DNA of 22,190 bases, from positions 1-22,190 of IMG/VR virus record IMGVR_UViG_3300027752_000127. One strand, 5' to 3'. Shown here one piece after another: positions 3,730-22,190 of the stretch. This DNA is from a virus. Position numbers and translations under genes: made by a program. The stretch's first letter is position 1. Every line of letters starts with the position of its first letter. The notes under the pieces are model-generated. The model did no database searches and was not told the DNA's origin. It worked only from the letters and a program-made list of their open reading frames with translations.

Positions 3730-3960
3730 CTAATCCCACTCGCCATCTTCGGTTTCTTCTTCATCGAATGCAAAGTGTCCTGTTACTGCTGTTTTTAATA
3801 CAGCATCAAAAGTACCCACTTCATCTTCAATATTTCCTAGGTCTGCTTCCTCATCGAAAACTCTAACTAGGTGTTCTGCCGCTTCAACACGATCTTTCTT
3901 AGGAACATAGTGCTTAACAGTGTCCCAGACACTTACTAAAAGTAAAATATCAGGATTCAT
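3730..3960 (-). CDS. Small acidic protein in the uvsX-uvsY interval
   Basis: This 76-aa protein is not assigned to a family. It is strongly acidic, with a tail rich in glutamate and aspartate (FDEEETEDGEWD), and has no cysteines or membrane segments. Its ATG shares one base with the uvsX stop (TAATG) and uvsY starts a few bases after its own stop, so it is translated with both. A small acidic protein between a recombinase and its mediator could bind one of these partners or mimic DNA, but this is inference from charge and position only. Confidence 0.75.
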   Translation of the reverse strand: MNPDILLLVSVWDTVKHYVPKKDRVEAAEHLVRVFDEEADLGNIEDEVGTFDAVLKTAVTGHFAFDEEETEDGEWD

Positions 3961-5075: not shown

Positions 5076-5087
5076 TTTTAATACTCC

Positions 5088-6113
5088 TTAAGAACGATTC
5101 TTAATCATGTTAAGAATATCAGTCGCACTAGGTTTCGCATCACCTTCTGCCGCCGGGACAACTGGTGCCACTGGTGCTGGTGCTGGTGCTACTACTGGTG
5201 CCGCTGTTGGCGTAACATCAAACGGAATGTCTGCTGTCGCTTCTGCAACTGGAGCCGCTACTGGAGCCGCTACTGGTGCCGCTGTTTGCACAGATGCTGT
5301 AGTAGGTTGTGTTGCTGACTTAGGTGCTTCTACGCCATAAGGCTTGTAGAACATTGCCCAACGCTCTGGATCATACAACTCACCGTCAACTGATGCTTGG
5401 AACATTTCGCTAATTGCGTTAAGTTCGTCTTGTCCAGGTCTTTTAGGTAAAAAGTCTGAAAGTGTAAATAAGCCATTTGCGTCAATCGCCGCTAGTTCAG
5501 TTTCATCCAAGCCACGCTCTTTACGAGCCCATTTTGAAGTACTGTAATCAGCGTACTGTCCTTTAGTTGTTTTAGTAACTCTAAAATCTGTTCCAGCAGT
5601 ATAGTCAGTTGGAATGTTTTCCATATCTGGATCCATTAGTGCTGATTTAATAATGTTAAAGATTTGTGGTGAGATTACAAAACGCCTTACTGGATTTTCA
5701 GGTGCTGTTTCGGTTAGTGCGTTTTCAGTTACAAATCCTTGGAAGATGTAACTACGTTTTTTCCAATATTTACGACCGAGGTCTTCTAAAGAAGCATCCT
5801 TAAACCAAGGACGTACTTCAGTTAATACTGGACAAGTGTCGCCGTACATTTCTGCACAAGGTACTTGTACTGTTACTGGTTTCATGTCTCCACCTTTTAC
5901 TCCAGGGAAAGTAAGACGAATCATTTGTCTTTCTACCCAGAAAAAAGTGTTGTCAGGATCGCTATCAGGCAAAAACCTTAGTGTTGTACTAGTGTTCTCG
6001 TCGATATTCCAGTGGGGGTAAATGGCGTTGTCGCCGCCGTTTGATGAACTGTTTGGTTTGGAATTAGATTCCATAGAGGCCAGTTTAGCTCTAATTTCTT
6101 GTAAAGATGCCAT
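5088..6113 (-). CDS. gp32: gp32, single-stranded DNA-binding protein
   Basis: The 341-aa protein is a gp32-type SSB: a basic N-terminal stretch for cooperativity, a core with WVERQMIRLTFPG, GRKYWKKRSYIFQGFV and a KWARKERGL segment, then a long alanine/proline/valine-rich linker (about 265-325) ending in a short C-terminal tail. It coats single-stranded DNA in replication and recombination. T4 gp32 binds zinc through a His and a CPVC motif. Here the corresponding CPVL (C94 to L97) lacks the last cysteine and only C86 and C94 remain, so the T4-like zinc site looks incomplete. A GGAGAAA Shine-Dalgarno precedes the ATG. Both a consensus sigma70 promoter and a late-type box lie upstream, indicating expression early and late. 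Confidence 0.93.
   Translation of the reverse strand: MASLQEIRAKLASMESNSKPNSSSNGGDNAIYPHWNIDENTSTTLRFLPDSDPDNTFFWVERQMIRLTFPGVKGGDMKPVTVQVPCAEMYGDTCPVLTEVRPWFKDASLEDLGRKYWKKRSYIFQGFVTENALTETAPENPVRRFVISPQIFNIIKSALMDPDMENIPTDYTAGTDFRVTKTTKGQYADYSTSKWARKERGLDETELAAIDANGLFTLSDFLPKRPGQDELNAISEMFQASVDGELYDPERWAMFYKPYGVEAPKSATQPTTASVQTAAPVAAPVAAPVAEATADIPFDVTPTAAPVVAPAPAPVAPVVPAAEGDAKPSATDILNMIKNRS
5248..5283. repeat. Three tandem 12-nt repeats in the gp32 linker
   Basis: The unit actggagccgct (plus-strand reading) occurs three times in tandem with one base change in the last copy, encoding AAPV-type repeats in the flexible linker of gp32. It is part of a longer alanine/proline-rich low-complexity stretch (about 5150-5300), which could expand or contract by slippage. 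Confidence 0.8.
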
Positions 6114-6175
6114 GTTATTTCTCCATATGTGCCATGTGTGTTAATCCTTTGGGGTTTGTGGACTAACTTAGGTTT

Positions 6176-6204
6176 ATTATAATATATCTTTGCCATGTTG
6201 TCAA
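6176..6204 (-). promoter_or_regulatory. Consensus sigma70-type promoter for gp32-uvsX-uvsY operon
   Basis: TTGACA (6204-6199) and TATAAT (6181-6176) lie 17 bp apart on the minus strand, a perfect consensus. The -35 is preceded by AAAAAGG as in the promoters before the AAA+ ATPase gene. A start near 6169 would give a leader of about 55 nt before the gp32 ATG. Confidence 0.85.
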
Positions 6205-6249
6205 CCTTTTTCTATCACTTGATAGCAATCGTTGTCTTTATTGTAATAG

Positions 6250-6257
6250 TATTTATG
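6250..6257 (-). promoter_or_regulatory. T4 late-type promoter box upstream of gp32
   Basis: CATAAATA followed by CTATT on the minus strand matches the T4 late promoter consensus TATAAATA. It lies between the stop of the 428-aa gene and the sigma70 promoter of gp32. The box overlaps by one base a perfect 10-bp palindrome (GCCTTAAGGC, 6257-6266). It would give late expression of gp32 and the recombination genes. Confidence 0.55.
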
Positions 6258-6282
6258 CCTTAAGGCAGTTTAAACCGTCTTT

Positions 6283-7569
6283 TTATTGAGCAAAAGGTTT
6301 ATCACTGCTAGTAAACTTGTTTAAGAATGTTTCAAATTTACCTAAATCGTCAGTACTTTCTGCCATAACTGGTGTTGAATTCTGTGCAGAAAGTAAAGAT
6401 GCCTTAACTGCTCTGTATTCAAACTGACTCATTGTGCCGCCACTGGATAACTTACTGCCTATACCATTTAAGTATCCGCCTAACTTCTCACTAGATGCAG
6501 ATTGCCCTAATTGTGATACTCTGTGACCTAATTGTGCATTAGGTGAATCAAATTGCATTACTGAATCGTTTTCTTGCATAAGTGTCTTAGCATTCTTAAA
6601 TGATTCTGTTTGGATAGTATCCATTATGTAACTTTCGAAAGCAGATTGTTTATTAACTAACTTACTTAATGTAAGATGTGCATTACCTACCTTGTCGTCA
6701 AAATGTGTTTCAGTGAAGTGGTCTTCTAGATTTACTTCATTCACTATTTCAACGTTATTAAATTCTGCTAAACTTTCAACAGCATTTGCATAAGTCTTTA
6801 CGCCGCTAAGTTTCTTAAATGTAGTTCTGATGTTTTCGATGTGTTCTTTAGCAAGTGAGACATACTCGCCATTAGTTTCGTTAACCAAACCTTTCTTAGT
6901 AACATAACCAACAAACTCTTTGATAGAACCAAAGTCTTTACACATTCCAATAATACTTTCAGCGACAGTATCGTGCATTGTTCCGCCATTGTGTATGTGC
7001 CTAGCCATTGCTCTTGCACCATGTAAGTTTTTACTTGGGAACAAATAACGTTCTTCGTTCGCTTGAATAAAAATCTTACTAATGTTTCTGCTTCTCGAAC
7101 CACGTACTTCTTCGTTAACGTCTTTACTGTGTTTAACAATAATCTTAACGTTGTCTAGTGGTTGATAACTAGTTTTAACTGAACCACTTACTGGTCCTAA
7201 ATTTGCTTCCGTTACTGATTCCATACCTGTCTCTTTGGTTGATCTCGCAACACTTATTGCATCGCTTATTGGTTTAAGAGTTTTCCCAAATACTCTAAAG
7301 TCTAAATTCATCAAGTAACTTTGGGCTAACTGTTTTAATTGCTTTCGTAAAATGTCAGTTTCTTCTGTATTAGCACTGACACTAAACTTAATTTGTTCTT
7401 CGGGTACATTAAGTGTAACAAGTAAGTCTGGATCATTAACGTAAAAACGTACTGCTTCTGCAGGATCGCCTACTACCTTACCTTCTTTGTCAAAGGTATC
7501 AACAGCAAATCCATATCCTTTTAATAAATTGAATACTTTATCTGCTACTGTTTTAACTGAAATTGCCAT
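6283..7569 (-). CDS. Probable virion structural protein of unknown role (428 aa)
   Basis: I cannot assign this protein to a named T4 gene. It is soluble-looking, with no membrane segment. It has an N-terminal region containing KVFNLLKGYGF and EAVRFYVNDPDLLVTLN, a middle segment with RGSRSRNISKIFIQANEERY and HGARAMARHIHNGG, and a serine/glycine-rich C-terminal part. This arrangement resembles uncharacterised virion proteins of marine T4-like phages. Late expression is supported by a GATAAATA box at 7589-7596 that sits inside the end of the preceding gene, followed by an AGGAGAT Shine-Dalgarno directly before the ATG. Its place between the packaging gene and gp32 gives no further hint. Confidence 0.6.
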   Translation of the reverse strand: MAISVKTVADKVFNLLKGYGFAVDTFDKEGKVVGDPAEAVRFYVNDPDLLVTLNVPEEQIKFSVSANTEETDILRKQLKQLAQSYLMNLDFRVFGKTLKPISDAISVARSTKETGMESVTEANLGPVSGSVKTSYQPLDNVKIIVKHSKDVNEEVRGSRSRNISKIFIQANEERYLFPSKNLHGARAMARHIHNGGTMHDTVAESIIGMCKDFGSIKEFVGYVTKKGLVNETNGEYVSLAKEHIENIRTTFKKLSGVKTYANAVESLAEFNNVEIVNEVNLEDHFTETHFDDKVGNAHLTLSKLVNKQSAFESYIMDTIQTESFKNAKTLMQENDSVMQFDSPNAQLGHRVSQLGQSASSEKLGGYLNGIGSKLSSGGTMSQFEYRAVKASLLSAQNSTPVMAESTDDLGKFETFLNKFTSSDKPFAQ

Positions 7570-7581
7570 TTAATATATCTC

Positions 7582-8358
7582 CTACTTGTATTTATCTTTT
7601 ATGTCGTTTAAGTATTCATAATCGTTTTTATACATTTCTTTAATCATGTCTCTTACGCCCGGATCAACGGTTTCATCTGTAACTATAATGTTCCTTTCTT
7701 CTGAGTAACGTGTAACAAAGTCCCAATCATGCTCTATGCCTAATTTACGATTAAAGTACGCTGAATCGCCTATTTTGTTAAAGTCTAGTAGTACTAAGTT
7801 AACACCGGAGTCTTGCCAACTTGGTATTATATCACTATATTTGTTCTGTGCATACATTAATTTATCAGCTGTCTCTATTTTTCTAGTTGCATGTTGCTGT
7901 ATTTTACGTTTAAGTATGTCAACACCTTGTGGCGTATTAAATAATTCTGCTTCTCTATCAAACACTTCGCCCATTGTAGTTCTATTATGGGCCCACCAAC
8001 TAGAATGATTAATTAAACTAATCCATGTTTCGTACGGATCCCTGATCCACAAATAAACAGTTAAATCAAAACGTTTGTCTAACTCTTTAATGATAGTTGT
8101 ATCTCTACTAGCCTGATACCACCCTAAAGAAAAATCCATCCAAGGTTTTTCCGACTGTTCTACTGTGTCGTAATATTCTTGCATTGTTTTACTAAAATGC
8201 TTCCCTTGGCTTATTACAGGAAAGTCTGGAAATGGTTTATCACACCATACGTATGATTCTTTTAATTGATATGTATTGTATTTGCTCTTTAAGTTTTCCC
8301 AAAGCCATGTAGTGCCTGTTCGGGCTGGCCCAACACACAGCATAAGTTCTTGAGACAT
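7582..8358 (-). CDS. P-loop sulfotransferase family protein
   Basis: The 258-aa protein begins with LCVGPARTGTTWLWENL (P-loop near residues 10-18), the 5'-phosphosulfate-binding loop of PAPS-dependent sulfotransferases. A later LWIRDPYETWISLINH segment matches the 3'-phosphate-binding motif (RDP...S). Length fits the family. Such enzymes move a sulfuryl group from PAPS to hydroxyl or amino groups on sugars, lipids or proteins; the acceptor is unknown. The ATG shares one base with the terminase stop (TAATG), so it is translated with the packaging motor and expressed late. A second, quite different sulfotransferase-like gene lies on the opposite strand at 11972-12592. Confidence 0.8.
   Translation of the reverse strand: MSQELMLCVGPARTGTTWLWENLKSKYNTYQLKESYVWCDKPFPDFPVISQGKHFSKTMQEYYDTVEQSEKPWMDFSLGWYQASRDTTIIKELDKRFDLTVYLWIRDPYETWISLINHSSWWAHNRTTMGEVFDREAELFNTPQGVDILKRKIQQHATRKIETADKLMYAQNKYSDIIPSWQDSGVNLVLLDFNKIGDSAYFNRKLGIEHDWDFVTRYSEERNIIVTDETVDPGVRDMIKEMYKNDYEYLNDIKDKYK
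7589..7596 (-). promoter_or_regulatory. T4 late-type promoter box for the 428-aa gene
   Basis: GATAAATA on the minus strand lies within the last codons of the sulfotransferase gene. The predicted start, near 7583, would leave the AGGAGAT Shine-Dalgarno (7583-7577) right at the mRNA 5' end, ahead of the ATG at 7569. Confidence 0.5.
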
Positions 8359-9953
8359 TACAAGAATCCGATTGGCATAGGCTCATCATATTCGTCATAT
8401 GGGCCAGTATCTCTGTCTGATTTTTCTATTCCGATTGTAGAATTTACTACTGAGAAAACATCGTCCTCAAATGTAGCAATATATGATACCATTCTACAAG
8501 CAACAATCATAGCCATAACTAAATCATCGCTTTCACCTGGTTGCCCAGCAAAGCTATTGCCTCTTGCTACAAATGTTTTTAGTTCTCCGATTAATGCTTT
8601 ACTACATATGCCCAACTTATCTTGTTCTATGTATCGCTTAATTTGAATACAGCCTTCTATTTTTGTTTTACTGCTTGTATGGAATCCTTTACGTCCTTTA
8701 CGTCCTTGTACTTTAACAGGATCATGTAAGAACGTTCCTGGGAAGGCTTCCTCACCAGTGTCTCTAATAACAACGAGTGCCGCTTCACCAATACTGTTGT
8801 TTTCTACTGTCCAATAAATTTCTTTGGCACCATAGTTCTGTATTTCTGTAAGAATTTCCATCATTGTCTTAACTTGCCCCTCGATAGGAGTTTTGTTATG
8901 ACACCATTCTGCAACTTGATTCATACTAGGTAGTTCTATTACTTGTAGTGCGGCATTGTCACCGCCGGTGCCTGCACTTGGGTCTAAACTCACTACATAC
9001 ATCTTATCTGCACTGGGCCTCTTATACCAACGTACTTGTCCCATCTTGTACAGGGCGTCTGTGGCATGCATAGTGGCAAGTTTTAAAGGATCTACAAGTG
9101 TTTCATTGTAAATAATGAATTCACATTCATGTTCTCGTCTAAATCGTTCTTCACCTATTCTACTACGTTCTTCTTCTGCCCACTCTACCGTTCTATCTGG
9201 ATGCTGATCCCATTTTGCCATGTATCCTTTAAATCCGTTGACACCGACAACACTTGGATTACCATATTCATCAACTGTCTTTGTTGCTTGATTCCAAATA
9301 CTAGCAAATGTGTCTTCATCACTGTTAGGCGTAGATGTCATAATACATTTTCCGCCTGTACTTAATGTTGGAGACAATGCTGTCCAAAATTCTGCGGCAA
9401 TACGTGGGGGTACAAACGCAAACTCATCCAAGTAAACTAATGTTAACGACATACCACGACCAGTATTCTCAGTAGTTGTACTACTTACTATACGTGATCC
9501 ATTGTCAAATGTTAAACTAGTCTTATTATATTCTGAAACACCTGCTCTAATATGGTCTGGAATACATTCGTATGCATATCTTATACGTTGCATGATTTCT
9601 TGTGAGCCTGCCGCTTTGTGAGCCGCAACTAATATTGTGCTGTCTGGCTTAAACATAGCAAACCATAGCAAGTATGCCGCCGCCACAGTGGTCTTACCCA
9701 TCTGTCTGCCCAGCATGTTAATACTGTATCTAAATTCGTTGTAGTTGTTTATTAAATCCTTCTGGTAATCGAAGGGTACAAAGTCAATTCCGCCCTTTGT
9801 AGGATGCTGGATCTTTACAAAGTTTTCCATGAAGTACAAGGCGCCATGTACAGGGTCGCAACACAGTTGAAACTCTCTAAGCATCTCCTGGTCGTACTGT
9901 ATTTTTTGGTATGCTGGTTTTACCAGCTCGGTATTTACTGTTCCTTTAGGCAT
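8358..9953 (-). CDS. gp17: Terminase large subunit (gp17), DNA packaging motor
   Basis: The 531-aa protein has the full layout of a T4-type large terminase. The ATPase domain carries Walker A GRQMGKTT (82-89), Walker B LVYLDE (172-177) and the coupling motif TSTPNS (206-211). The RNase H-like nuclease domain carries D324 in SLDPSAG, E384 in VENNSIG and D476/D477 in ESDDLVMA. It translocates DNA into the prohead and cuts concatemers. It has no Shine-Dalgarno. A CATAAATA late box ends 6 nt before the ATG, which suggests an almost leaderless mRNA. It overlaps the next gene (sulfotransferase) by one base. Unlike T4, tail sheath and tube genes do not follow it. Confidence 0.97.
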   Translation of the reverse strand: MPKGTVNTELVKPAYQKIQYDQEMLREFQLCCDPVHGALYFMENFVKIQHPTKGGIDFVPFDYQKDLINNYNEFRYSINMLGRQMGKTTVAAAYLLWFAMFKPDSTILVAAHKAAGSQEIMQRIRYAYECIPDHIRAGVSEYNKTSLTFDNGSRIVSSTTTENTGRGMSLTLVYLDEFAFVPPRIAAEFWTALSPTLSTGGKCIMTSTPNSDEDTFASIWNQATKTVDEYGNPSVVGVNGFKGYMAKWDQHPDRTVEWAEEERSRIGEERFRREHECEFIIYNETLVDPLKLATMHATDALYKMGQVRWYKRPSADKMYVVSLDPSAGTGGDNAALQVIELPSMNQVAEWCHNKTPIEGQVKTMMEILTEIQNYGAKEIYWTVENNSIGEAALVVIRDTGEEAFPGTFLHDPVKVQGRKGRKGFHTSSKTKIEGCIQIKRYIEQDKLGICSKALIGELKTFVARGNSFAGQPGESDDLVMAMIVACRMVSYIATFEDDVFSVVNSTIGIEKSDRDTGPYDEYDEPMPIGFL

Positions 9954-11324: not shown

Positions 11325-11438
11325 ATGACCATTAAAGTTAAAGAACCTCAAAATCCTAAAGAAGGCGAATATTCATTGGCAAACGATGGTACTGTGGTAG
11401 TGTTTAAAAACGGTGCTTGGACTATTCCTAGTCAGTAA
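11325..11438 (+). CDS. Short plus-strand late gene, 37 aa, unknown function
   Basis: The 37-codon frame encodes a protein starting MTIKVKEPQNPKEGEYSL and containing NDGTVVVFKNGAWTIP. The late box at exact leaderless spacing is the main evidence that it is expressed. There is no Shine-Dalgarno. The DGTxxxxxNGAW pattern resembles the DGTYW...NGSTWV motif repeated in the tail sheath insert of this window, so it may be a single free-standing copy of a small virion-surface module; that link is inferred from the motif only. Its stop codon overlaps the end of the convergent small-terminase gene by 11 bp. It may have been missed by standard annotation because of its size and strand. Confidence 0.55.
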   Translation: MTIKVKEPQNPKEGEYSLANDGTVVVFKNGAWTIPSQ

Positions 11439-11946
11439 CGTCATCTACTTTAGTATTAATTATTTTCAATAATTCGTTACGATCCATTGTAGCAGTTGCT
11501 GGACTGCCATCATCATAATTACCAGCATTGCTATCAAGCCTTGCTTTCTTAATCATCATATCAATTTGTTTTAACTTTGAATTAATCTTACTATCTTTTG
11601 CTTCTAAGGCAGTCTTTAACATTTTTGCGGCACTATCAAATATACTGCCAGCTTCTCTATCCCCGACATTCATACCCAAGTTCATCAACTGCTGAAAACT
11701 GTCTGTTGCCTGTCGAGCAATATCATCCATTTCAACATTATGATCCTCAAGACCCTTTACATTTTGTAAAGCATTGTCAATTTTTTCTGCTGTGGTTAAA
11801 GCTGTTTGAATATCTTCTACATCTATAGTCTCAAATTCAGTTACTTGCTGATCATTTAGTTCTTTTTGAGGAGCAGTCTCTGGTATGGCTTCATACGTGT
11901 CTTGCATGGGAGGTAGATTAAATTCTTCTTCTAATTTCTTTGTCAT
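11428..11946 (-). CDS. gp16: Probable terminase small subunit (gp16-like)
   Basis: The 172-aa protein (start at ATG 11946) has an acidic N-terminus, a central helical part with DSFQQLMNLGMNVGD and IFDSAAKMLKTALEAKDSKI, then a helix KQIDMMIKKARLD and a C-terminal MDRNELLKIINTK. The central helices recall the coiled-coil region of T4 gp16 (DAAKIFLETAKNADS), the small terminase that recognises DNA and stimulates gp17. I chose 11946 rather than ATG 11973 because TAAATACTGTTATGACAAA around it is shared with the radical SAM gene start. The call is moderate: two genes separate it from gp17, while in T4 the two are adjacent. Confidence 0.55.
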   Translation of the reverse strand: MTKKLEEEFNLPPMQDTYEAIPETAPQKELNDQQVTEFETIDVEDIQTALTTAEKIDNALQNVKGLEDHNVEMDDIARQATDSFQQLMNLGMNVGDREAGSIFDSAAKMLKTALEAKDSKINSKLKQIDMMIKKARLDSNAGNYDDGSPATATMDRNELLKIINTKVDDVTD

Positions 11947-11951
11947 AACAG

Positions 11952-11959
11952 TATTTATG
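11952..11959 (-). promoter_or_regulatory. T4 late-type promoter box 5 nt before the gp16-like ATG
   Basis: CATAAATA then CTGTT then ATG (11946). The block TAAATACTGTTATGACAAA is identical to that before the radical SAM gene at 13659. Spacing predicts a leaderless mRNA and no Shine-Dalgarno is present. Confidence 0.65.
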
Positions 11960-11966
11960 CTAAGTA
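11959..11966 (+). promoter_or_regulatory. Degenerate late-type box on plus strand before sulfotransferase gene
   Basis: GCTAAGTA followed by TTATC and ATG (11972) has the same 5-nt spacing as the leaderless late genes, but with G in place of one A and a weak first half. It abuts the minus-strand late box, so the 25 bp between the two ATGs would act in both directions. Low confidence. Confidence 0.3.
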
Positions 11967-11971
11967 TTATC

Positions 11972-12592
11972 ATGATAGGAATAATTTCAGGCTATAGGAC
12001 AGGATCTAGTACACTTATTACAGCGTTAAGTGAAACTCTGGGTATGACTTACGAACATCAATTTACTGGTGAGCTAGACTTTCATACAAACCTGTTCAGT
12101 TACCCAAAATCTATAAATCAGATATATAAAATAATGCCAACTAATAATAATCTTCGTGGAGAGACTAGAGAGTTATTTTATAAACACTGGCTAGACAACA
12201 GTTCTAACTTATTTTACACCGTAAGACATGATATTACTGCTCAGATAAAAAGTTGGGCATTAGCTAATATAACTCGTGGCTTTCATCCGGGACCTAACCG
12301 TCATATCGATAATTATAATCATTGGAACGATACCAAATTTGAGACTATTCGAGAATGTCAATCTCATATAGACAGCACATTTACTGAATCATCGTTACTT
12401 GGTTATAGGGATCAAATTATAAGCACCATGCAGAATCAATACGAAATATATCGAAAGTATAAGGGCACAGTTTGTTGGTTAGAAACTAGAGCAAAAACTA
12501 ATAATAATAAATATCCAATAGTTTTTTCGTTGCCAGCAGAGTTCGACTCGTGGCATTGTGGTTCTGTTGGTAAACAACATTTTAAACAGTAA
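11972..12592 (+). CDS. Plus-strand P-loop sulfotransferase-like protein
   Basis: The 206-aa protein starts MIGIISGYRTGSSTLITAL, matching the PAPS-binding loop of sulfotransferases (GxxRTGSTxL). A later YTVRHDITAQIKSWA segment fits the RxxxxxxxS 3'-phosphate motif. It is shorter than typical family members and ends soon after a QYEIYRKYKG helix, so it may be a minimal or inactive form. Upstream in-frame ATGs at 11957 and 11885 exist; 11972 is chosen because the P-loop strand normally begins at the N-terminus. It is one of two plus-strand genes in an otherwise minus-strand region. It converges on the radical SAM gene, with 11 bp between stops and no terminator visible. Acceptor unknown. Confidence 0.65.
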   Translation: MIGIISGYRTGSSTLITALSETLGMTYEHQFTGELDFHTNLFSYPKSINQIYKIMPTNNNLRGETRELFYKHWLDNSSNLFYTVRHDITAQIKSWALANITRGFHPGPNRHIDNYNHWNDTKFETIRECQSHIDSTFTESSLLGYRDQIISTMQNQYEIYRKYKGTVCWLETRAKTNNNKYPIVFSLPAEFDSWHCGSVGKQHFKQ

Positions 12593-12603: not shown

Positions 12604-13659
12604 TTATTTGTACTTTGCTATATTATGTGATACAGATATGTTGTGTGCATTAGGCTCTAGGTCAATTGCTCTAAGTTGAGCTAAAAATTCTTCTCGTAAT
12701 GGGTGTGTGAGGTTATCGGTTATATCCTCTTCTTCATAATTAACAAATGTTTTCCAATCATCTAACTTAGTAATAAATCCCCTAGCATTATACTTGGCGC
12801 ATAGTCTAACAAAATTTATAATATCTAGTGCATTTGCTTTTTGTGCCGTAAAGTTAAAAGCTATCCTCATATTAGGTAGTTTGTTTTCTTGCATCCAATC
12901 TAAATTTTCTATTAGTTTTTCCCAAACTCCGGGTCTCCTGACATCTTCATACACTTCTTTACAGCCAGCATCTATACTAATTTTAAATTCGCCTATATTT
13001 GGTAATATTTTACTTCCGGCTAATTGTTTTTTCATTAGTAAACCGTTAGTAAATAATGTAACAGAATGATTAGCTTGTGGAATCCAATCTTTAACAAATG
13101 GCCTCATTATAATACTTGCTAAAGGATCGCCGTTGCCAGTTAGTGTTACGTTTGTACGACCTTTGTACCGTTCTATTAACTTTATAGTATGCTTGGCATA
13201 CAGTACTTGCTTATCAAATCTTTCGCCTTGCAGTCGAAGAAGCATTCCTGTTCTACAACTAGGACATGCTAAATTACAACTATCATCTACATTAACAAAA
13301 ATTGATTGGAATAATCCTTGCTCATCACTGTGTTCTAAATCTCTATCCATAATGCCGCAATGTTCAACAGCACAATAGGTAAACTTCTTATCATCTACAT
13401 CTTGCTGTAACTCTTTTGCTAACGGCTGATCCCAAATTTCTTCTAACGACTCTACATCTAAAATGTTACACACAGAAAACGGCAAATATAATTCACAATT
13501 ATCTATGTAGCATTCACCGTTAACAGTGATATTTAAACTTTGTCGTGGTAAGTTACATGAGTTAGTTATATTATACTGAAGTTCTTTATTACGTTTAGCA
13601 ATAGGGATTAACTGCGATGTTGGCGGATGCAGTAAGTGTGCGTCTATTAATTTTGTCAT
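12604..13659 (-). CDS. Radical SAM protein with N-terminal SPASM-like cysteine region
   Basis: The 351-aa protein has the radical SAM signature CNLACPSC (C128, C132, C135), which binds a 4Fe-4S cluster and cleaves S-adenosylmethionine to a 5'-deoxyadenosyl radical. A GNGDPLAS motif (GxGEP-like), an FTNGLLM strand and FKISIDAG follow in the usual order. Before the core, C35, C50, C55, C64, C96 and C101 are arranged as NGECYIDNC, SVCNILDVESLEEIW and TYCAVEHC. This resembles a SPASM/twitch auxiliary-cluster domain, normally found at the C-terminus. SPASM enzymes usually modify peptides or proteins, so a protein substrate is likely but unidentified. A late box 5 nt before the ATG predicts a leaderless late mRNA. 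Confidence 0.85.
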   Translation of the reverse strand: MTKLIDAHLLHPPTSQLIPIAKRNKELQYNITNSCNLPRQSLNITVNGECYIDNCELYLPFSVCNILDVESLEEIWDQPLAKELQQDVDDKKFTYCAVEHCGIMDRDLEHSDEQGLFQSIFVNVDDSCNLACPSCRTGMLLRLQGERFDKQVLYAKHTIKLIERYKGRTNVTLTGNGDPLASIIMRPFVKDWIPQANHSVTLFTNGLLMKKQLAGSKILPNIGEFKISIDAGCKEVYEDVRRPGVWEKLIENLDWMQENKLPNMRIAFNFTAQKANALDIINFVRLCAKYNARGFITKLDDWKTFVNYEEEDITDNLTHPLREEFLAQLRAIDLEPNAHNISVSHNIAKYK

Positions 13660-13664
13660 AACAG

Positions 13665-13672
13665 TATTTACC
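13665..13672 (-). promoter_or_regulatory. T4 late-type promoter box 5 nt before the radical SAM ATG
   Basis: GGTAAATA then CTGTT then ATG (13659), placed in the short gap after the gp4 stop codon. The downstream TAAATACTGTTATGACAAA is identical to that at the gp16-like gene. No Shine-Dalgarno is seen. Confidence 0.6.
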
Positions 13673-14149: not shown

Positions 14150-14584
14150 TTAAGGCCTAATTGCGTTTGCTATCTTGCTTTGTCTGTTTGTTTTAGAAAC
14201 AGTTAAACCAATAAGATTTCCTTTTGGTCTAATTTTATTTATAGCTTTGTAAGTGTTCTCTGCTAGTTTGATTGAAGTTTCGTTTATTTCAAAATACTCC
14301 ATCGGGTGTACACCTTGCTGTTTGGCAATTTGTATTAGTGCAACTGCAAGTGTTTTGCCTGTTGCTTCATTAAAGCCGATACTAGTAAGTCTGCCATAAA
14401 CTAAATCAATTTCATCGCCGTTCATTCCGGCGTTTGGTTGTCCTAACATTGTTGTTAGAATTTCCACACTTGCTTCTGGTAGTGGAAATGCTATAGTAGA
14501 GTTTTCTAAAAACTTAACAAGTTTATCTTTACGAACTTCATAACTTACTTCGTTACCAAATGTTTCATATAAACTAGTACTCAT
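14150..14584 (-). CDS. Unknown structural-region protein (144 aa)
   Basis: I do not recognise this protein. It is mostly helical and soluble, with an LPEASVEILTTMLGQP segment, a GMNGDEIDLVYGRLTSIGF middle part and a basic C-terminal end (TVSKTNRQSKIANAIRP). Its ATG shares one base with the stop of the tube-like gene, and gp4 follows within two bases, so it is made with both. Possible roles are tail completion or a small baseplate or neck part. It does not show the conserved N-terminus I know for T4 gp53. Confidence 0.65.
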   Translation of the reverse strand: MSTSLYETFGNEVSYEVRKDKLVKFLENSTIAFPLPEASVEILTTMLGQPNAGMNGDEIDLVYGRLTSIGFNEATGKTLAVALIQIAKQQGVHPMEYFEINETSIKLAENTYKAINKIRPKGNLIGLTVSKTNRQSKIANAIRP

Positions 14585-15729
14585 TATCCGGTGCCTCCCT
14601 GATTGCCGCCGCCGACGGCTTGTCCGGCATTGTAAGTATCTGTCATTTTGCTGGCTTCAGCGTCTGTCAATGGCGCTTCGCCACTAGTGCTAAACGAATC
14701 TAAAAAACTAACTTGTTCTTTCCTGGATACGCCGTTTAAAAATTCAGCTTTTCTTTCTTGTAATGCTAGTGGATATATAGCACTTGGGTGTTGCCCTTCT
14801 GCTTTGTCGCCGGCTTCTAACATTTTCCATTCGCCTGTATGAAAGTTTGAAAATCTTTTCAGGTCGTCTTCTTCCATACGTTCATTTACATTTGGTGCCA
14901 TTGTAAAATTTTCATATTCAATACTTAAACTAATAGTACTAGCCGCTGTTGAGTTAGTATAGTCTACTCCGGTAATTTCAAAGGAAGTTATTATAGGATT
15001 AAATAATGTATACTTAATAGCCTTCTGTCCGTGATACTGTACAACGTCTATACTTGTAAGAAAGTTTCGTTGATCTGCCGGCTGTAAGTTTAATCCTGCA
15101 GAATTACTATCGAATGGTCTAGTAAAACTTCCACTGGCATCTGGTACAGATTCAGGAACTATATCATTCTTAATAGTTGTTTTTACACCTTCTTTATACA
15201 TATTAGTAGGGTTGGTGAATAAGTGTGAGTACATTCTCATTAACATAGTAACCCATAAACTATCGACTGTATCGTAAACTACAACCTGTACAGGTTTATA
15301 GTCGACAGCTGATACTGTTATGCGTTTTCTGTTATACTGATTTTGTACTGTTGTGGCAAACTCTGCACTTGGCATTGTGCTGGATTGTACCATACTGCTT
15401 AATCTGTTTTGAAAGTCTGCATTAGTATTTAACTCATTCAGGTTTATGTTATCATTAAAAATAAAATTAACATAGCCATTGAACGGTAGGCGTACTGGAG
15501 TATTTTCAGGATTAAATCTGGTTGCATTATTAATATCTTTCCAATAATGCCCTGTTGGTTGGTCACCTCGAGCTTTGAACGGGGTAACTTTACCGTTGAA
15601 CATTCCGCCTGATCCATTGTCCTCTGCAGGAGTGAAAACTCTTACAGCACCGTTGAACATTCCGCCAAACGCTTTAGCATCATTAACGAGGTTTAAAAGT
15701 TTCGGTAGATCAGTTGGTTCGAATGCCAT
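14584..15729 (-). CDS. Tail tube-like or tube-initiator-like virion protein
   Basis: The 381-aa protein is probably a tail protein. KAIKYTLFNPIITSFEI followed by VDYTNSTAASTISLSIEYEN is the sort of terminal beta-strand pairing seen in contractile-tail tube folds, and the gene comes directly after gp19. It could correspond to the gp48/gp54 tube-baseplate proteins of T4, but I cannot match it specifically. The N-terminus carries two copies of GGMFNG (residues 22-27 and 41-46) and the C-terminus is glycine-rich (AVGGGNQGGTG). No clear Shine-Dalgarno precedes ATG 15729, and no late box is seen. It is expected to depend on readthrough of the terminator after gp19 or on an unseen promoter. Confidence 0.55.
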   Translation of the reverse strand: MAFEPTDLPKLLNLVNDAKAFGGMFNGAVRVFTPAEDNGSGGMFNGKVTPFKARGDQPTGHYWKDINNATRFNPENTPVRLPFNGYVNFIFNDNINLNELNTNADFQNRLSSMVQSSTMPSAEFATTVQNQYNRKRITVSAVDYKPVQVVVYDTVDSLWVTMLMRMYSHLFTNPTNMYKEGVKTTIKNDIVPESVPDASGSFTRPFDSNSAGLNLQPADQRNFLTSIDVVQYHGQKAIKYTLFNPIITSFEITGVDYTNSTAASTISLSIEYENFTMAPNVNERMEEDDLKRFSNFHTGEWKMLEAGDKAEGQHPSAIYPLALQERKAEFLNGVSRKEQVSFLDSFSTSGEAPLTDAEASKMTDTYNAGQAVGGGNQGGTG

Positions 15730-15792: not shown

Positions 15793-16431
15793 TTATATTC
15801 CTGTTGTAGCGCCAGGCGTGTACGTGAATCCTACTGCGGCTCCAACACCTGTTGAGTTATCAGTAATAACACCTTTAGATCCGTCTTGTTGTATTGCGTT
15901 ATCGTATCTAAGCGTCATAGTAATCTGGACTGGCTCATTAGTTGAGTAGTCTGAATCACTGTAATCAGTGTTTGTAATGAAGCAACCATATAATGCCCAA
16001 CTTTCTGTAGCATCTGCTGTTTGTCCATCTAACACTTCTATAAGCATATCAAATTTGTAGTCTGATCCAGCAACTGGTGTTGTCTGGTCATAATGATTTA
16101 CCTGCTTAAGATTCTGTGAACCAATTGCTTTTGCAACTGTGTTTCTAACGTCATCTCTGATTACAACAGTAATCGGTTCCCAAGCATGTTTGCCCTGAAC
16201 ATATACTTTTGAATTGTAACTATCAATCATAACTTCTTCGTATGCTACTTTAGGTCTTGATACGTTTTGTACGTTTTGTGTTATAGTAAGGGTATCTCCG
16301 CCATCACCAAAATCTCCACCGAACATAACTCTAAATCGGAATTTTAATTTGGGCATTAAAATACCACTACCTGTGTTACCAGTTGTTGGAACTCCGAATT
16401 TGTCCAACGTCTTTTGATTAATCTGTGCCAT
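15793..16431 (-). CDS. gp19: Tail tube protein (gp19)
   Basis: The 212-aa protein has the features of a myovirus tail tube subunit: a start PKLKFRFRVMFGG, VSRPKVAYEEVMIDSYNSKV, WEPITVVIRDD, and a late EPVQITMTLRYDNA strand. Hexamer rings of this protein form the inner tube through which DNA passes. It is longer than T4 gp19 (163 aa), with additions at the C-terminus (residues 180-212, rich in glycine and threonine). A GATAAATA late box, a leader hairpin and an AGGAGAA Shine-Dalgarno precede the ATG. A terminator follows. It lies directly downstream of the sheath gene, as in T4. Confidence 0.88.
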   Translation of the reverse strand: MAQINQKTLDKFGVPTTGNTGSGILMPKLKFRFRVMFGGDFGDGGDTLTITQNVQNVSRPKVAYEEVMIDSYNSKVYVQGKHAWEPITVVIRDDVRNTVAKAIGSQNLKQVNHYDQTTPVAGSDYKFDMLIEVLDGQTADATESWALYGCFITNTDYSDSDYSTNEPVQITMTLRYDNAIQQDGSKGVITDNSTGVGAAVGFTYTPGATTGI

Positions 16432-16581: not shown

Positions 16582-19365
16582 TTAACTTCCAGTTTGGCCC
16601 AAAGTGTTTTGGATTCTAATCGGAATGTATATAAACTCAACTGCTTTCATTGGCTGTACTGCAATGTCAATGTAAAGTTCGTTTCTGTCTATTCTAGCCG
16701 CTGTATTATTAGAAGTATCACAAACTGTAATAAAGTCTACTAATCCACGTGTTGTAACTAACTGACTTAACAGTCCGTCAACAATGTTTTTGGCTTTCAT
16801 TCTGATAACCGCATCATTTGGTTCAAACAATAAAGGTTTAACGATATCATCAAGTCTTTCTCTTATGTAAACCATAAGTCTAGCAACGTTAATTCTATCT
16901 AATGCACTAGCAGTTGGGTTCAGAGTTTTCTGACCAAATACTGCAAGTCCTCTTCCTGGGAAAGAAGCAATAGGATTAAGTTTGTTTTGATATAAAGTAT
17001 CTCTTTGACCTTCGTTAAGTGTTACCGCAGTGTACTCACCTGATGTAGGATCTACATAACCAACTGAAGTAGCATTCTGCACTAGTCCTCTTTGGAAGCC
17101 TGCTGGTGCAAACCAAGGATAAGCAACGTTATCGTTATATGCAATAGTTCTTAAAGCAACATGTGAAGCTGGAACAACTACGTTAGTTCCGTCTAGGTTT
17201 GTTGTTAATGCACTAGGATAATAAATAGCCGCGTAAGGTGAAGCTGAAACAAGTCCGTCTTCTCCGTTTTCACTTGCTACTGCTTTATTGGTTGCCCAAT
17301 TAGTAATACTAGTTGCATCTGCTTTAAGTCTAAACGGTGTGTCACCGATCACAAAGGCAGTATTTCTTCTGTCTGTGCTTAAGGTAATCATTTCGTCTAG
17401 CATTTCTGGCATGCCTGGAGCGGCTATAACATTAAAAGCATTTGTTTCAGCTCTAATATCATCGTTAGACGCAATAGCACTTTGCATTTTAACTTTAACT
17501 AAGTTATGTACTGATTTTCTCAAACCATGCATATTACCGTCTTGCTTATTTCCAGAAGCATCTACCCAAACATTACCAATGTTAGTTCCGCTTGGTGTGT
17601 AATTGAGTTTGTACTCTTTTACGTTACCAGCTGATGCTCTTTTGTTCCAACCTAATATTCCGTTTGGATATAGTGAAGCCAACGGTGCGTCTGCATCTAA
17701 AGAACTACTTGCTGATTGTCTAAAGTCTGCAAATACAACGCCATCTGCTGTATTTTGCTCTGCGCCGTCTACTGCAACCCAAGCCGTTCCTGACCACTTG
17801 TTCAGTGATGGGAAGTTTTCAGTATCATCAGAATCTAACCAAACATCACCTGCCACTAGTGCAGTTGCGTCTGATTGTGTAGTTGGAGCTGTTGCTTTTG
17901 CTTGGAAGTCCTTAGTAAAGGTTACCCAAGTTGAGCCGTTGTGCTCTAACAAGTCAATTGATGTATTAGAAACTGCTGTGTTGTACCAGTATGTTCCGTC
18001 TGCTAAAGTACCAGTTAAAGATGTTTTACTTGCTTGGTAGCTTAGTGCCGCGAAGTTTGAGTATGTAGCACTTACAGTAACAGCCGCTGTTCCAAATCCT
18101 ACTGTACTTGGTCCAAAGTCTGCATGGTTACTATTTAATACAATGTCTCTTCCTTTGCTTGAAGTTAATACTATAGTGTTAGCAGTTGTGCCTTCACTTG
18201 CTACTACTTCCGTTACACTTGCCGCCGCCAATGCCGCGTTGATGTCAAAAATAGCATCATCGGCTGTTGAAGTAGCAGGAGTTCCTGATATAGTACCAGC
18301 TAAAGTTACAACAACTGTTGTACCGTTATAAACAATATCAAAACTAGAGTTACCTGAAACGTCTAAAGCCGCTATGGCTGTTGAAGTAGCAGTAACAGTT
18401 TTTGATCCGTTATGTCTTTTTAATTCAATTTCTGCTTCAGCAGTGTTGTAAATACCAACTACTGAACCAACAGTAACATTTGCCATACCAATACTAGTAT
18501 ATGCTAAGTCTGTTGTAGAGTATAATGGAGTACTTACAGTACTGAAAGTTTTAGTTGATAAGCTGTAACCTTTAACACTTAAACTTGCACCAGTATTTGG
18601 TGTAGTAGTTTGAATGAAAACATCACCAGTTGCCAGAGTAGAAACTCCGTCACTTTGTAATGTAGGTACTGCTAAATGACTTTTAAATTGGAAGTCGCTA
18701 CTAGTAGCACTAATCCAACTTGCAGTACCAATTTGGTACCAGTCGTCACTGTATTTTTCAAAATATTTTACGTCTGTGGCAGTTCCGCCTGCGGCTGTAT
18801 TAGCTACAACGGCATAGTCGCCATTTAAGCCAAATGACCTTTTAGGTCCTGCTGTTCCTGAATCAATACTAGTTGAATCTACAACTGATACTGATTTCTT
18901 AACCCATGCTGTGCCTGACCATTCTCTAAGTCCTAATAAAGAACTTGCAGTGTCGAGCCAGTAAGTGCCGTCTGCGATTGCGCCAGTTGGTGCAGTGCTT
19001 CTTGCTGTAAGGTCGCCTAAGTCTAAATCAGCTCTTAAAACGTATGCTCTATTGGCAAGTCCTAAGAAACTGTGTGCGGCTAATAATCCATATTCGTTGA
19101 GATCATACCCGTTTAATGCAACTGAGCCACTAGAATGAAACACTGGGTTACCATATGTTTGTAATAATTCTCTTTGACTTGTTACAAGTTTTAATTTTCC
19201 TGCGTTTGCCTTAGTTGTATTTGACGCAGTACCTAGACCGTCAGGAGTTTTTTTATCCTGTGCAGTCGCTATAATTATTAATGGTACTGTTCCTGTTCCT
19301 GCCGCGGCATAGAACGATTCGTCTGATACACTAATGGAAACACCTGGTGATACTAATGTAGCCAT
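16582..19365 (-). CDS. gp18: Contractile tail sheath protein (gp18), enlarged
   Basis: The 927-aa protein begins MATLVSPGVSISVSD and ends with the conserved sheath C-terminal domain (about residues 640-927, with INVARLMVYIRERLDD and YIDIAVQPMKAVEFIYIPI). This makes it gp18, the contractile outer tail layer. T4 gp18 is 659 aa. The extra length lies between about 118 and 600, where a GTYW/GDVW...W(S/N)G(T/S)xWV motif recurs (131-154, 455-481, 505-530, with weaker copies near 246 and 597). This insert is serine/threonine/alanine-rich and probably forms exposed domains on the tail surface. The gene has its own late promoter, an AAGGAGA Shine-Dalgarno and a strong terminator. Confidence 0.95.
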   Translation of the reverse strand: MATLVSPGVSISVSDESFYAAAGTGTVPLIIIATAQDKKTPDGLGTASNTTKANAGKLKLVTSQRELLQTYGNPVFHSSGSVALNGYDLNEYGLLAAHSFLGLANRAYVLRADLDLGDLTARSTAPTGAIADGTYWLDTASSLLGLREWSGTAWVKKSVSVVDSTSIDSGTAGPKRSFGLNGDYAVVANTAAGGTATDVKYFEKYSDDWYQIGTASWISATSSDFQFKSHLAVPTLQSDGVSTLATGDVFIQTTTPNTGASLSVKGYSLSTKTFSTVSTPLYSTTDLAYTSIGMANVTVGSVVGIYNTAEAEIELKRHNGSKTVTATSTAIAALDVSGNSSFDIVYNGTTVVVTLAGTISGTPATSTADDAIFDINAALAAASVTEVVASEGTTANTIVLTSSKGRDIVLNSNHADFGPSTVGFGTAAVTVSATYSNFAALSYQASKTSLTGTLADGTYWYNTAVSNTSIDLLEHNGSTWVTFTKDFQAKATAPTTQSDATALVAGDVWLDSDDTENFPSLNKWSGTAWVAVDGAEQNTADGVVFADFRQSASSSLDADAPLASLYPNGILGWNKRASAGNVKEYKLNYTPSGTNIGNVWVDASGNKQDGNMHGLRKSVHNLVKVKMQSAIASNDDIRAETNAFNVIAAPGMPEMLDEMITLSTDRRNTAFVIGDTPFRLKADATSITNWATNKAVASENGEDGLVSASPYAAIYYPSALTTNLDGTNVVVPASHVALRTIAYNDNVAYPWFAPAGFQRGLVQNATSVGYVDPTSGEYTAVTLNEGQRDTLYQNKLNPIASFPGRGLAVFGQKTLNPTASALDRINVARLMVYIRERLDDIVKPLLFEPNDAVIRMKAKNIVDGLLSQLVTTRGLVDFITVCDTSNNTAARIDRNELYIDIAVQPMKAVEFIYIPIRIQNTLGQTGS

Positions 19366-19480: not shown

Positions 19481-20134
19481 TTATTTTTTTAAATCGTTTT
19501 CTGTAATAAGTTCGTGCAAGGAATCTACACCTGTTTGCAACGCATCTAACGTATCGTTGTTTGTAAGCACATGGTCAAAGTCATACCCTATCCAATTCCA
19601 TTCGCTGAGGTGTACCTGCTTAAATTTCGTGTTCATTATATGCTGAGATGGAACATGTCCACCATTGGCTAAGGTAGCCGTTTCATACCATTCAGGCTTC
19701 TCACCTCGTTCAATGTTAATTACAACACCGCCTAAACGTTTAATTAAATCCAATTCATTTGTAAATCTAGTATCGCTTATAACTACACAAGGATGGTCTA
19801 TTTCTGCTCTACGCATTCTGTACTCTAAACTATCGATCCATATATCTTTATGGAAATGAGTACGAAGTACTTCTGTTCCCATTAGTTGTAATGCTAATCT
19901 AGGAGTAAAATTATCTATGCCCAGTTTCCGGGTCCAGAACATATCAGCTGTTTCTCTGAAGTCTCTACTATTAATTGTGTCGCCTTCTAGGTCCGATCTG
20001 TTCCAGCCGAATATAGATGCACACACATCTTTAAGTGGTGCCGCGAAACTATCCTGTAAACAGCCTCTGTTAACAAAACAACTTGCAACAGTATCTTTAC
20101 CAGAGCCTATTAGTCCTGTTATCCCGATTATCAT
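19481..20134 (-). CDS. gp1: Deoxynucleoside monophosphate kinase (gp1-like)
   Basis: The 217-aa protein opens with the P-loop GLIGSGKDT (residues 7-15). It also has SFAAPLKDVCASIFGW, LGIDNFTPRLALQLMGTEV, VVISDTRFTNELDLI and GGVVINIERG, the pattern of T4 gp1 dNMP kinase. The enzyme phosphorylates dNMPs (dGMP, dTMP and modified dCMP in T4) to diphosphates for phage DNA synthesis in the cytoplasm. Its ATG overlaps the stop of the preceding oxygenase-like gene by ATGA, so it is translated as part of that unit rather than with nucleotide genes. Confidence 0.9.
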   Translation of the reverse strand: MIIGITGLIGSGKDTVASCFVNRGCLQDSFAAPLKDVCASIFGWNRSDLEGDTINSRDFRETADMFWTRKLGIDNFTPRLALQLMGTEVLRTHFHKDIWIDSLEYRMRRAEIDHPCVVISDTRFTNELDLIKRLGGVVINIERGEKPEWYETATLANGGHVPSQHIMNTKFKQVHLSEWNWIGYDFDHVLTNNDTLDALQTGVDSLHELITENDLKK

Positions 20135-20970
20135 TTTATAAACTCGTTATTCATAATTAATTTTTTAATATCGAAGTAAGAATAATCTGGATCAAAACTT
20201 ATCGACCCCATATTCCTGTCTTCCTCTACTTGCGTGTTATCTATTCTATGCCACTGATTAGTCCTTATTAATGTAGGTACTGGCATTCCGTAATATTCAT
20301 CTACTTTAGTAAGTAACTCATCATGATTATCATACACAATACTGTGACCTGATTTAATTCTTACACCTTCGCCACTGTCATGTGTGATGTATAACAGTTC
20401 AGCCATTTCAGATATATCTGAATCTGGCATTGTTGCAGAACGCAATTTTATGTGACTTTCTATCATAGCTTGTGGCGGATTTAGTCCAACACTATCCATA
20501 ATGTTACTGTATCCTTGTGTTAACAATTCGCCCACTCTGTCATAGGCTTGGGCCCATTCAATTTTACTGTTAGACAAGTCTGACTCGGATACCGGGTAGT
20601 TAAGTGCAACAGAGCGCCTTGTTGCTCTAACGGCTTTCCTATATTCTTCTGGTGCATTGTCAGTATATTCCATTCCTTCGTTATGCCATTGGTATGATCC
20701 GTGTGCTGGCGTATGTAAAATTATAACGTCATGCACAGGAATTGTCAACTTTTTCTGTAAGTCTTTAACCATCTTATTTATTATGCCCGTTTTCCACAGA
20801 TATATAAATCCCATCTTGTGCTGGGTTATAAAGAAGTCGTTGTTCCCATTTCGATTAAACTCGTTAACATCTCCAGTAAAACGTTCGTAACTTCTACCAA
20901 AACAATCTTTAGCAAATTGAAAAATAGGATCTAATTCCGACGTTGGCAATTGGAAGTGATTATCGCTCAT
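20131..20970 (-). CDS. 2OG-Fe(II) oxygenase-like (DSBH) protein, paralogue B
   Basis: The 279-aa protein is a tandem paralogue of the gene just upstream of it. A double-stranded beta-helix hydroxylase is suggested by TPAHGSYQWHNEG (H96, E98), RRSVALNYPV, QWHRIDN (H241) and DRNMGSISF (R252). The order H-x-D/E ... H ... R is that of Fe(II)/2-oxoglutarate enzymes; this is inferred from motifs and the metal site has E where D is usual. It lacks about 25 residues near position 165-200 relative to its paralogue. The first 45 residues and last 13 are almost identical between the two. ATGA overlaps join it to both neighbours. Substrate unknown; a protein or small-molecule hydroxylase is possible. Confidence 0.6.
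   Translation of the reverse strand: MSDNHFQLPTSELDPIFQFAKDCFGRSYERFTGDVNEFNRNGNNDFFITQHKMGFIYLWKTGIINKMVKDLQKKLTIPVHDVIILHTPAHGSYQWHNEGMEYTDNAPEEYRKAVRATRRSVALNYPVSESDLSNSKIEWAQAYDRVGELLTQGYSNIMDSVGLNPPQAMIESHIKLRSATMPDSDISEMAELLYITHDSGEGVRIKSGHSIVYDNHDELLTKVDEYYGMPVPTLIRTNQWHRIDNTQVEEDRNMGSISFDPDYSYFDIKKLIMNNEFIK
20849..20940. repeat. 92-bp perfect direct repeat, copy 1 (5' part of paralogue B)
   Basis: These 92 bases are identical to 21760-21851 and encode the shared N-terminal part of the two oxygenase-like proteins (from SELDPIFQFA to the VNEFNRN region). Flanking sequence is clearly diverged, so identity stops sharply. Confidence 0.9.
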
Positions 20971-21881
20971 TTTATAAACTCGTTATTCATAATTAACTTT
21001 TTAATATCGGAGTAAGAATACTCTGGATTAAAACTTATTGATCCCATATTTCTATCTTCATCAACATGGGAGTTATCTACTCTATGCCACTGATTAGTTT
21101 TTATTAATGTGGGTACTGTCATGTCATAGTACTCGTCTACTTTAGTAAGTAGTAACTCATCATGATTATCATACACATTACTGAGTATAGCTTTAACTGA
21201 TAAACCTTCGCCGGTGTCGTGCGACGCCGTTAGTATATCGTTAATTTCTTTGGGGGTTAGTTTCAGTGCTTCGGATATATTAGGGTGTTGCAATTTCCCT
21301 ATATGAAATGTCGTATTTTTTAAACGTAAGTTTATATGATCGTCTGCGAAGTTATGTGAAAGTAATTCAATATCGACTCCAGCTGTAGGCTCATGGGCAA
21401 CACTATTCATTATATTACTGTATCCGTCTATTAATAATTCTTTGAGTTTGTCACTAGATGTTGCCCATTCAATTCTACTGTTAGACAAGTCTGCATTATC
21501 AAGTGGGTAATTAAGTGCAACTGATCTTCTTGTCATGCTGACTATGTGTCTAAATTGCTCTGTTGAATGTTCAGTATATTCCGTTCCTTCGAGATGCCAT
21601 TGGTATGTTCCGTGTGCTGGTGTTTGTAAAATAGCGAATTCGTCTACCGGGATTGTCACCTTTTTCTGTAAGTCTCTAATCATCTTATTCATTACACCCG
21701 TTTTCCACGCATATAAGTGACCTAACTCGTACTTGCTTATAAACAGATCATTATTACCGTTTCGATTAAACTCGTTAACATCTCCAGTAAAACGTTCGTA
21801 ACTTCTACCAAAACAATCTTTAGCAAATTGAAAAATAGGATCTAATTCCGAAGATACCAATTGGAAGTGATTATCGATCAT
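20967..21881 (-). CDS. 2OG-Fe(II) oxygenase-like (DSBH) protein, paralogue A
   Basis: The 304-aa protein shares the layout of its downstream paralogue: TPAHGTYQWHLEG (H96, E98), RRSVALNYPL, QWHRVDN (H266) and DRNMGSISF (R277). This fits a double-stranded beta-helix, 2-oxoglutarate/Fe(II)-type fold, as inferred from motif order. It has an extra 25-residue segment near 170-210 (with HINLRLKNTTFHIGKLQHP). The paralogues are roughly half identical in the middle but almost identical at both ends. It is joined by ATGA overlaps to the partial gene upstream and the paralogue downstream, making a three-gene oxygenase-like run. Retention of all putative metal ligands in both suggests both are active, perhaps on different substrates. 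Confidence 0.6.
   Translation of the reverse strand: MIDNHFQLVSSELDPIFQFAKDCFGRSYERFTGDVNEFNRNGNNDLFISKYELGHLYAWKTGVMNKMIRDLQKKVTIPVDEFAILQTPAHGTYQWHLEGTEYTEHSTEQFRHIVSMTRRSVALNYPLDNADLSNSRIEWATSSDKLKELLIDGYSNIMNSVAHEPTAGVDIELLSHNFADDHINLRLKNTTFHIGKLQHPNISEALKLTPKEINDILTASHDTGEGLSVKAILSNVYDNHDELLLTKVDEYYDMTVPTLIKTNQWHRVDNSHVDEDRNMGSISFNPEYSYSDIKKLIMNNEFIK
21760..21851. repeat. 92-bp perfect direct repeat, copy 2 (5' part of paralogue A)
   Basis: This copy is identical over all 92 bases to 20849-20940 and lies 911 bp away in the same orientation. The sharp boundaries fit recent gene conversion, or strong recombination between the two genes. Confidence 0.9.
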
Positions 21882-22190
21882 TGTGTTTGTACCAATAATT
21901 TTTTATTTTTATGTAGTTCCTCTAATTCGTTAAACGTATAACATTCGGATCCCATGAATCTTAATGTTACTCGTGCATTACCATCAGGTAGTGCAGGTAC
22001 TATAACTTTATGCCATTCTGCTACATTTATTATAAATGGACAATAGTTTCCAGAACGCACAACTTTTGTTGTTAATAATTCTTGTTCATCTCTACCAGAA
22101 TAAAATCCTGTCCGGGCCCGAAATACTCCTAAGTCATATTTTTTTGATTTAGCTTGTAATCTTCTGCCTGTTGTTGATTGTGCTAAGTCG
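21878..22190 (-). CDS. C-terminal part of a possible DSBH oxygenase-like protein, 5' end outside window
   Basis: The frame is open through the right edge, with about 103 codons visible. A GTG at 22060 exists, but translation continues upstream without a stop (QAKSKKYDLGVFRARTGFYS), so the gene is partial. EWHKVIVPALPDGNARVTL resembles the distal His...Arg part of the two following proteins (QWHRVDN...DRNMGSISF), so it may be a more diverged member of the same fold. This is inference from a short region. Its stop overlaps the start of paralogue A by ATGA. Confidence 0.55.
   Translation of the reverse strand, partial: DLAQSTTGRRLQAKSKKYDLGVFRARTGFYSGRDEQELLTTKVVRSGNYCPFIINVAEWHKVIVPALPDGNARVTLRFMGSECYTFNELEELHKNKKLLVQTQ

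Follow-up and report, generated by a model that had tools for sequence, protein, structure and literature searches.

Two old tandem paralogues of an uncultivated tailed phage, related to giant phages, genes A and B, very probably had their 5' ends equalised recently by ectopic homologous recombination, most likely by a gene conversion in which A was copied over part of B. Both genes lie on the minus strand of the window (the whole 22,190-nt virus record that was analysed), where B and A are joined by an ATGA overlap. The features of the array and of the shared segments are as follows.

20131 to 20970, minus strand: gene A, the downstream copy (279 aa), a putative 2OG-Fe(II) oxygenase with a conserved HxE...WH...R motif, and the probable donor
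20967 to 21881, minus strand: gene B, the upstream copy (304 aa), a mosaic by trees, AU tests and a window scan
21878 to 22190, minus strand: C-terminal part of gene C, which opens the array and is distantly related to the other two within one superfamily (profile match A2 versus A3, 96.2%, E 2e-9)
20849 to 20940, minus strand: putative conversion tract, gene A copy (codons 11-41, exact identity)
21760 to 21851, minus strand: putative conversion tract, gene B copy (codons 11-41, exact identity; 0 of 20,000 null simulations)
20131 to 20160, minus strand: 3'-end 30-nt identity, gene A copy, spanning the stop codon and the ATGA overlap with the dNMP kinase gene
20967 to 20996, minus strand: 3'-end 30-nt identity, gene B copy, spanning the ATGA overlap with gene A

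A first-pass annotation had reported that 20849-20940 and 21760-21851 are the same base for base, while the adjacent coding sequence is strongly diverged. Both statements hold. Base-by-base comparison gave an exact match of 92 nt that extends by 0 nt on either side and occupies codons 11-41 of A and of B, in the same frame and with the same codon numbers. Outside the tract, the in-register mismatch rate between the two genes ranges from 27% (20487-20848) to 32% (20131-20405); they are 73.0% identical from codon 42 to the end and 76% identical overall. The right edge of the tract is sharp, since the five codons beyond it encode unchanged amino acids and yet each of them carries a synonymous change. 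On the 5' side a further 19 bases and the start region match (including codons 3-8), interrupted by four changes in codons 9-10 and one in codon 2, and the 122 nt at the 5' end of the two genes are otherwise identical. The 3' ends, for which about 28 shared bases plus the ATGA overlap had been noted, are identical over 30 nt, a stretch that takes in the TGA and the overlap.

The 92-nt identity is not explained by chance or protein conservation. For the null model, per-site variability was derived from between-genome comparisons, and each pair was simulated at its own divergence in 20,000 simulations. Under this site-rate null the longest exact run for the window's A/B pair had a median of 23 nt and a 99th percentile of 41 nt, and a run of at least 92 nt was never obtained (0/20,000; p<5e-5). 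Synonymous differences along the two genes, which the earlier annotation had proposed to plot, are depleted in the tract: where A and B encode the same amino acid, 29 of 30 codons are identical inside it (the one exception being the edge codon), against 105 identical and 39 different codons among the 144 outside (p=0.0035).

The same mosaic pattern, which the annotation had suggested looking for in related phages, was present in three contigs of one relative (L002, L003 and L004). Here, copies 2 and 3 of a three-gene array share 97 identical nt at codons 11-43 (p<5e-5 under the site-rate null). The sequence of this tract differs from that of the window's and has at least 19 mismatches to every other genome; judged by these differences, it is the product of a separate, independent event. 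Further exact runs in L002 (66 and 44 nt), L037 (44 nt) and L076-L091 (42-22 nt) were tract-like by permutation and were not counted, because almost identical sequences recur in other genomes (0-4 mismatches).

Identical copies might also be created by assembly or amplification, through a collapsed or chimeric repeat, and the first-pass annotation had named such an artefact as a refutation of its reading. The sequence does come from an IMG/VR-type virus record, and 92 nt is close to typical k-mer sizes. However, the same A/B pair is found in a second IMG/VR contig, IMGVR_UViG_3300009172_000202, where 8 of 8,057 nt differ from the window, all as SNPs outside both genes; a 48-nt probe from the tract matches this contig only, and does so twice. 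The analogous 97-nt tract is likewise present twice in each of its three contigs, one of which has SNPs in copy 1. An artefact is thus unlikely, and we give it hardly any weight. The idea that the array causes assembly breaks was also rejected, contig ends within 2 kb of the head-tail adaptor gene Ad2 being no commoner on its downstream side, towards the array, than upstream (6 versus 19, n=53).

A constrained DNA or RNA element at codons 11-41 would hold both copies identical, and silent sites are indeed identical within the window's A/B pair. Between phages, however, the segment differs at 15 or more of its 92 nt and between-genome pairs lack synonymous conservation there (Fisher p 0.3-0.8), while within each of L005, L011 and L014 the two copies differ in this segment. 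As far as these relatives go, silent sites diverge between phages as much as elsewhere, and a constrained element was rejected as extremely improbable.

The ancestry of gene B points to recombination. Relatives of A and B for trees and comparisons came exclusively from IMG/VR. From codon 42 to the end, B clusters with L011_1 and L014_1, which are upstream genes of the B type (support 99/99), and a grouping of A with B is rejected (dlnL 103.5, AU 1.5e-60). In the tree of the first 41 codons A and B can hardly be told apart, and it is the grouping of B with its orthologues that is rejected (AU 0.007). The trees inside and outside the 5' segment conflict, and B is therefore a mosaic with an A-type 5' segment and a B-type remainder. 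Among other genomes, the nearest counterpart of the 92-nt tract is 15 mismatches away. Of the two causes that the first-pass annotation had offered, gene conversion is thus supported by conflicting trees, a private tract and a second, independent tract, whereas the constrained element fails on the silent-site divergence between phages.

With respect to the donor, nucleotide identity over the tract is ambiguous (78-84% to A-type relatives, 80-81% to B-type). Residues N4, F6, D14, Q18 and Y28 of B are those of A-type genes, and A was therefore the likely donor, in an exchange that we infer to have been non-reciprocal. A stretch of about 92 nt from gene A, which may have spanned codons 3-41, would have overwritten the matching part of gene B within the phage, through strand invasion or a template switch while recombination-dependent replication was under way. 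The five changes in codons 2, 9 and 10 argue against one clean tract running from the start codon. By the homologue model described below, the swap would have exchanged the N-terminal cap and left the active site untouched. The machinery may have been the phage's own UvsX, UvsY and single-stranded DNA-binding protein. PHROG matches located all three in the window, in agreement with the annotation, which had placed UvsX and UvsY nearby, and a role of UvsX/UvsY in the exchange is plausible.

3265 to 3726, minus strand: UvsY-like mediator (phrog_231, E 2.4e-13)
3960 to 5075, minus strand: UvsX-like recombinase, the possible agent (phrog_97, E 1.8e-66)
5088 to 6113, minus strand: ssDNA-binding protein (phrog_1192)

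Towards its 3' end, the gene for the ssDNA-binding protein contains tandem repeats (5154-5301) that encode an alanine/proline-rich stretch.

Alternatively, B could have gained its A-type 5' end along with gene C, through an ectopic crossover in the 5' region of A/B between a phage with a C-A array and a phage with a B-A array. Both kinds of array exist (C-A in L039 and L041, B-A in L037 and L038), the order C-B-A was found in no array but those of the window and its near-identical contig, and codons 3-8 of B are A-like as well. Two A-type 5' ends from different parents should nevertheless differ, A orthologues being 15-20% apart in this region, yet 92 nt are identical; moreover, the L002 tract is flanked by diverged sequence on both sides, which requires two breakpoints. 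We regard such a crossover as unlikely and favor conversion of B by A.

Given conversion, the position of the two tracts suggests a recombination hotspot. Their edges begin 1 nt and end 6 nt apart, a coincidence with a probability of about 0.003 under uniform placement, and in the model they lie close to where the N-terminal helices start and to the first core strand. Some feature of codons 11-43, e.g. conserved words on either flank or the boundary with the gene before, could favor exchange there. However, the coincidence involves two events and was spotted after the fact, L005, L011 and L014 have no tract at codons 11-43, and a motif was not identified, leaving the hotspot a doubtful addition to the conversion reading.

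The in-frame fused gene that the first-pass annotation had predicted from recombination between the copies does occur in a relative, with a breakpoint that falls in mid-gene, outside the 5' tract. The gene, L002_1, fuses a B-type 5' part to an A-type 3' part and carries the 31-nt leader of B-first arrays. Its first ~100 codons are mostly B-type (at codons 1-30 and 61-100, 0.87-0.88 to B against 0.76-0.78 to A), although A leads narrowly at codons ~31-70. By about codon 150 the gene has become A-type, at 0.87-0.88 to A against 0.53 to B in the variable middle. In AU tests, a B-type origin was rejected for codons 42 to the end (0.015), and an A-type origin was weakly rejected for the first 41 codons (0.042).

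Genes C, B and A occupy a slot in a conserved gene neighborhood, between Ad2 and the gene for a dNMP kinase. Gene A orthologues adjoin the kinase gene in L005 and L008-L018, and the complete gene C encodes 292 aa in L007 (871-1749).

19481 to 20134, minus strand: dNMP kinase, the conserved downstream border of the slot (PF21448, phrog_139)
16582 to 19365, minus strand: tail sheath, a conserved gene beyond the slot (phrog_10581)

The slot was surveyed in 80 loci (L035-L114) found via Ad2, in which the interval between Ad2 and the dNMP kinase gene holds 0-5 tandem genes. Besides C-B-A in the window, the contents are C-A, B-A, three A-like copies and, elsewhere, four or five more distant genes. 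The slot is empty in L094-L114, and its border genes adjoin each other in L100, as they do in a cultured Pseudomonas phage, PA5oct. The phages carrying the array are uncultivated, and by terminase and adaptor are nearest the PA5oct group. Profile comparison showed the slot genes to be homologous (A2 versus A3, 96.2%, E 2e-9; A2 versus A4, 98.0%, E 2e-13), and by fold and motifs they form one unannotated superfamily of putative 2-oxoglutarate/Fe(II) oxygenases. In L006, a cluster of small genes on both strands (4421-9042) includes one that matches Asp/Asn beta-hydroxylase (4979-5563; PF05118, E 8e-7) and one that matches the window's A/B family at its C-terminus (5560-6141). It is tempting, although we think it improbable, to see the slot as a diversification array. 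On this view its 0-5 putative oxygenase genes, which overlap briefly where they join, would recombine chiefly by exchanging their N-terminal caps (codons 11-43) and by fusing with one another, and new enzyme variants would result.

The array proteins share an HxE...WH(K/R)...R motif, which we take to be the metal and 2-oxoglutarate motif of double-stranded beta-helix oxygenases. In a 16-row alignment H94, H205 and R216 are invariant and E96 nearly so, and the HxE...WH...R motif is also present in A3 and A4. Searches of the array proteins against Pfam gave nothing above the cut-off and those against PHROG no convincing match; hence, the proteins are called putative oxygenases by fold and motif and not by sequence family. 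Neither isolate phages nor GTDB genomes yielded relatives. A structure model of window gene A was poor (pLDDT 46) and was left out of the fold search. The confident model of a compact homologue from L034 (pLDDT 84.8) matches phage proteins in BFVD (E 4.6e-9), and many of its top PDB matches are known 2OG/Fe(II) enzymes, among them SyrB2, proline hydroxylase H11, GriE and SnoN (E 2.7e-5 to 1e-3, with TM only 0.33-0.45). The model supports a beta-helix fold and, together with the motif, a predicted oxygenase activity. On this model, the tract would encode N-terminal helices that precede the first core strand and lie outside the catalytic barrel.

Elsewhere in the window, several other features were observed. 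The stretches 11921-11957 and 13634-13670 are related over 37 nt; on the minus strand they read TAAATACTGTTATGACAAA at an ATG and resemble a T4-type late promoter beside a start, so that the second Met is a possible start of the gene at 11428-11973. Two neighboring genes (14584-15729 and 15793-16431) both match tail-tube families (phrog_13438/phrog_4542) and are possibly a second tandem paralogue pair. A radical SAM protein with a SPASM domain is encoded among the head-tail genes (12604-13659). The lone plus-strand ORF amid minus-strand genes (11885-12592, 235 aa) has GYRTGSST near its start, similar to a sulfotransferase P-loop, and had no match in a Pfam search; a similar motif, GPARTGTT, is found in 7582-8358. 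Finally, 1881-2276 encodes a small protein with HELVH, a zinc-protease-like HExxH motif, whose PHROG matches are all of unknown function.

In cellular genomes, prokaryotes included (PMC6053082), paralogues are known to evolve in concert through interlocus gene conversion. The phage genes resemble such cases in that paralogues within a genome are closer than orthologues over the tract, edges are sharp and trees conflict. They differ from them in being phage genes, with a short 5' tract of ~92-97 nt in otherwise strongly diverged genes and in two lineages. As in the vaccinia copy-number arrays of PMC6115191, tandem virus genes trade variants by recombination and copy number changes; the vaccinia copies, studied by experimental evolution, are recent, whereas the phage copies are 57-80% alike in protein, with one segment homogenised. 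Variable genes inserted amid conserved structural genes recall the hyper-variable g15-g18 region of cyanomyoviruses (PMC2984593, in a passage citing Millard 2009). That region has diverse metabolic genes, whereas the slot lies between Ad2 and the dNMP kinase gene and holds a single superfamily, and the two were not equated. T4-like marine phages also carry several 2OG-Fe(II) oxygenase superfamily genes per genome with the same predicted fold (PMC3037559); those proteins are small (genes of 537-768 nt), while the array proteins are mostly 240-325 aa, lie in one array and are without Pfam, PHROG or isolate-phage match. A literature search of open-licence papers found none that treated gene conversion in this kind of phage array. 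The process itself, acting among tandem paralogues, is already known, and the array, the near-coincident breakpoints and the fusion are new examples.

With conversion as the very probable cause, the A/B pair represents clear segmental concerted evolution within a tailed phage's tandem array, for which the second lineage is a natural replicate and the fusion gene a natural by-product. The case cautions that a tree built from any one phage gene of this kind can blend different histories. For the uncultivated relatives of the PA5oct group, the array adds an unannotated putative oxygenase superfamily that varies from none to five copies at one conserved position.
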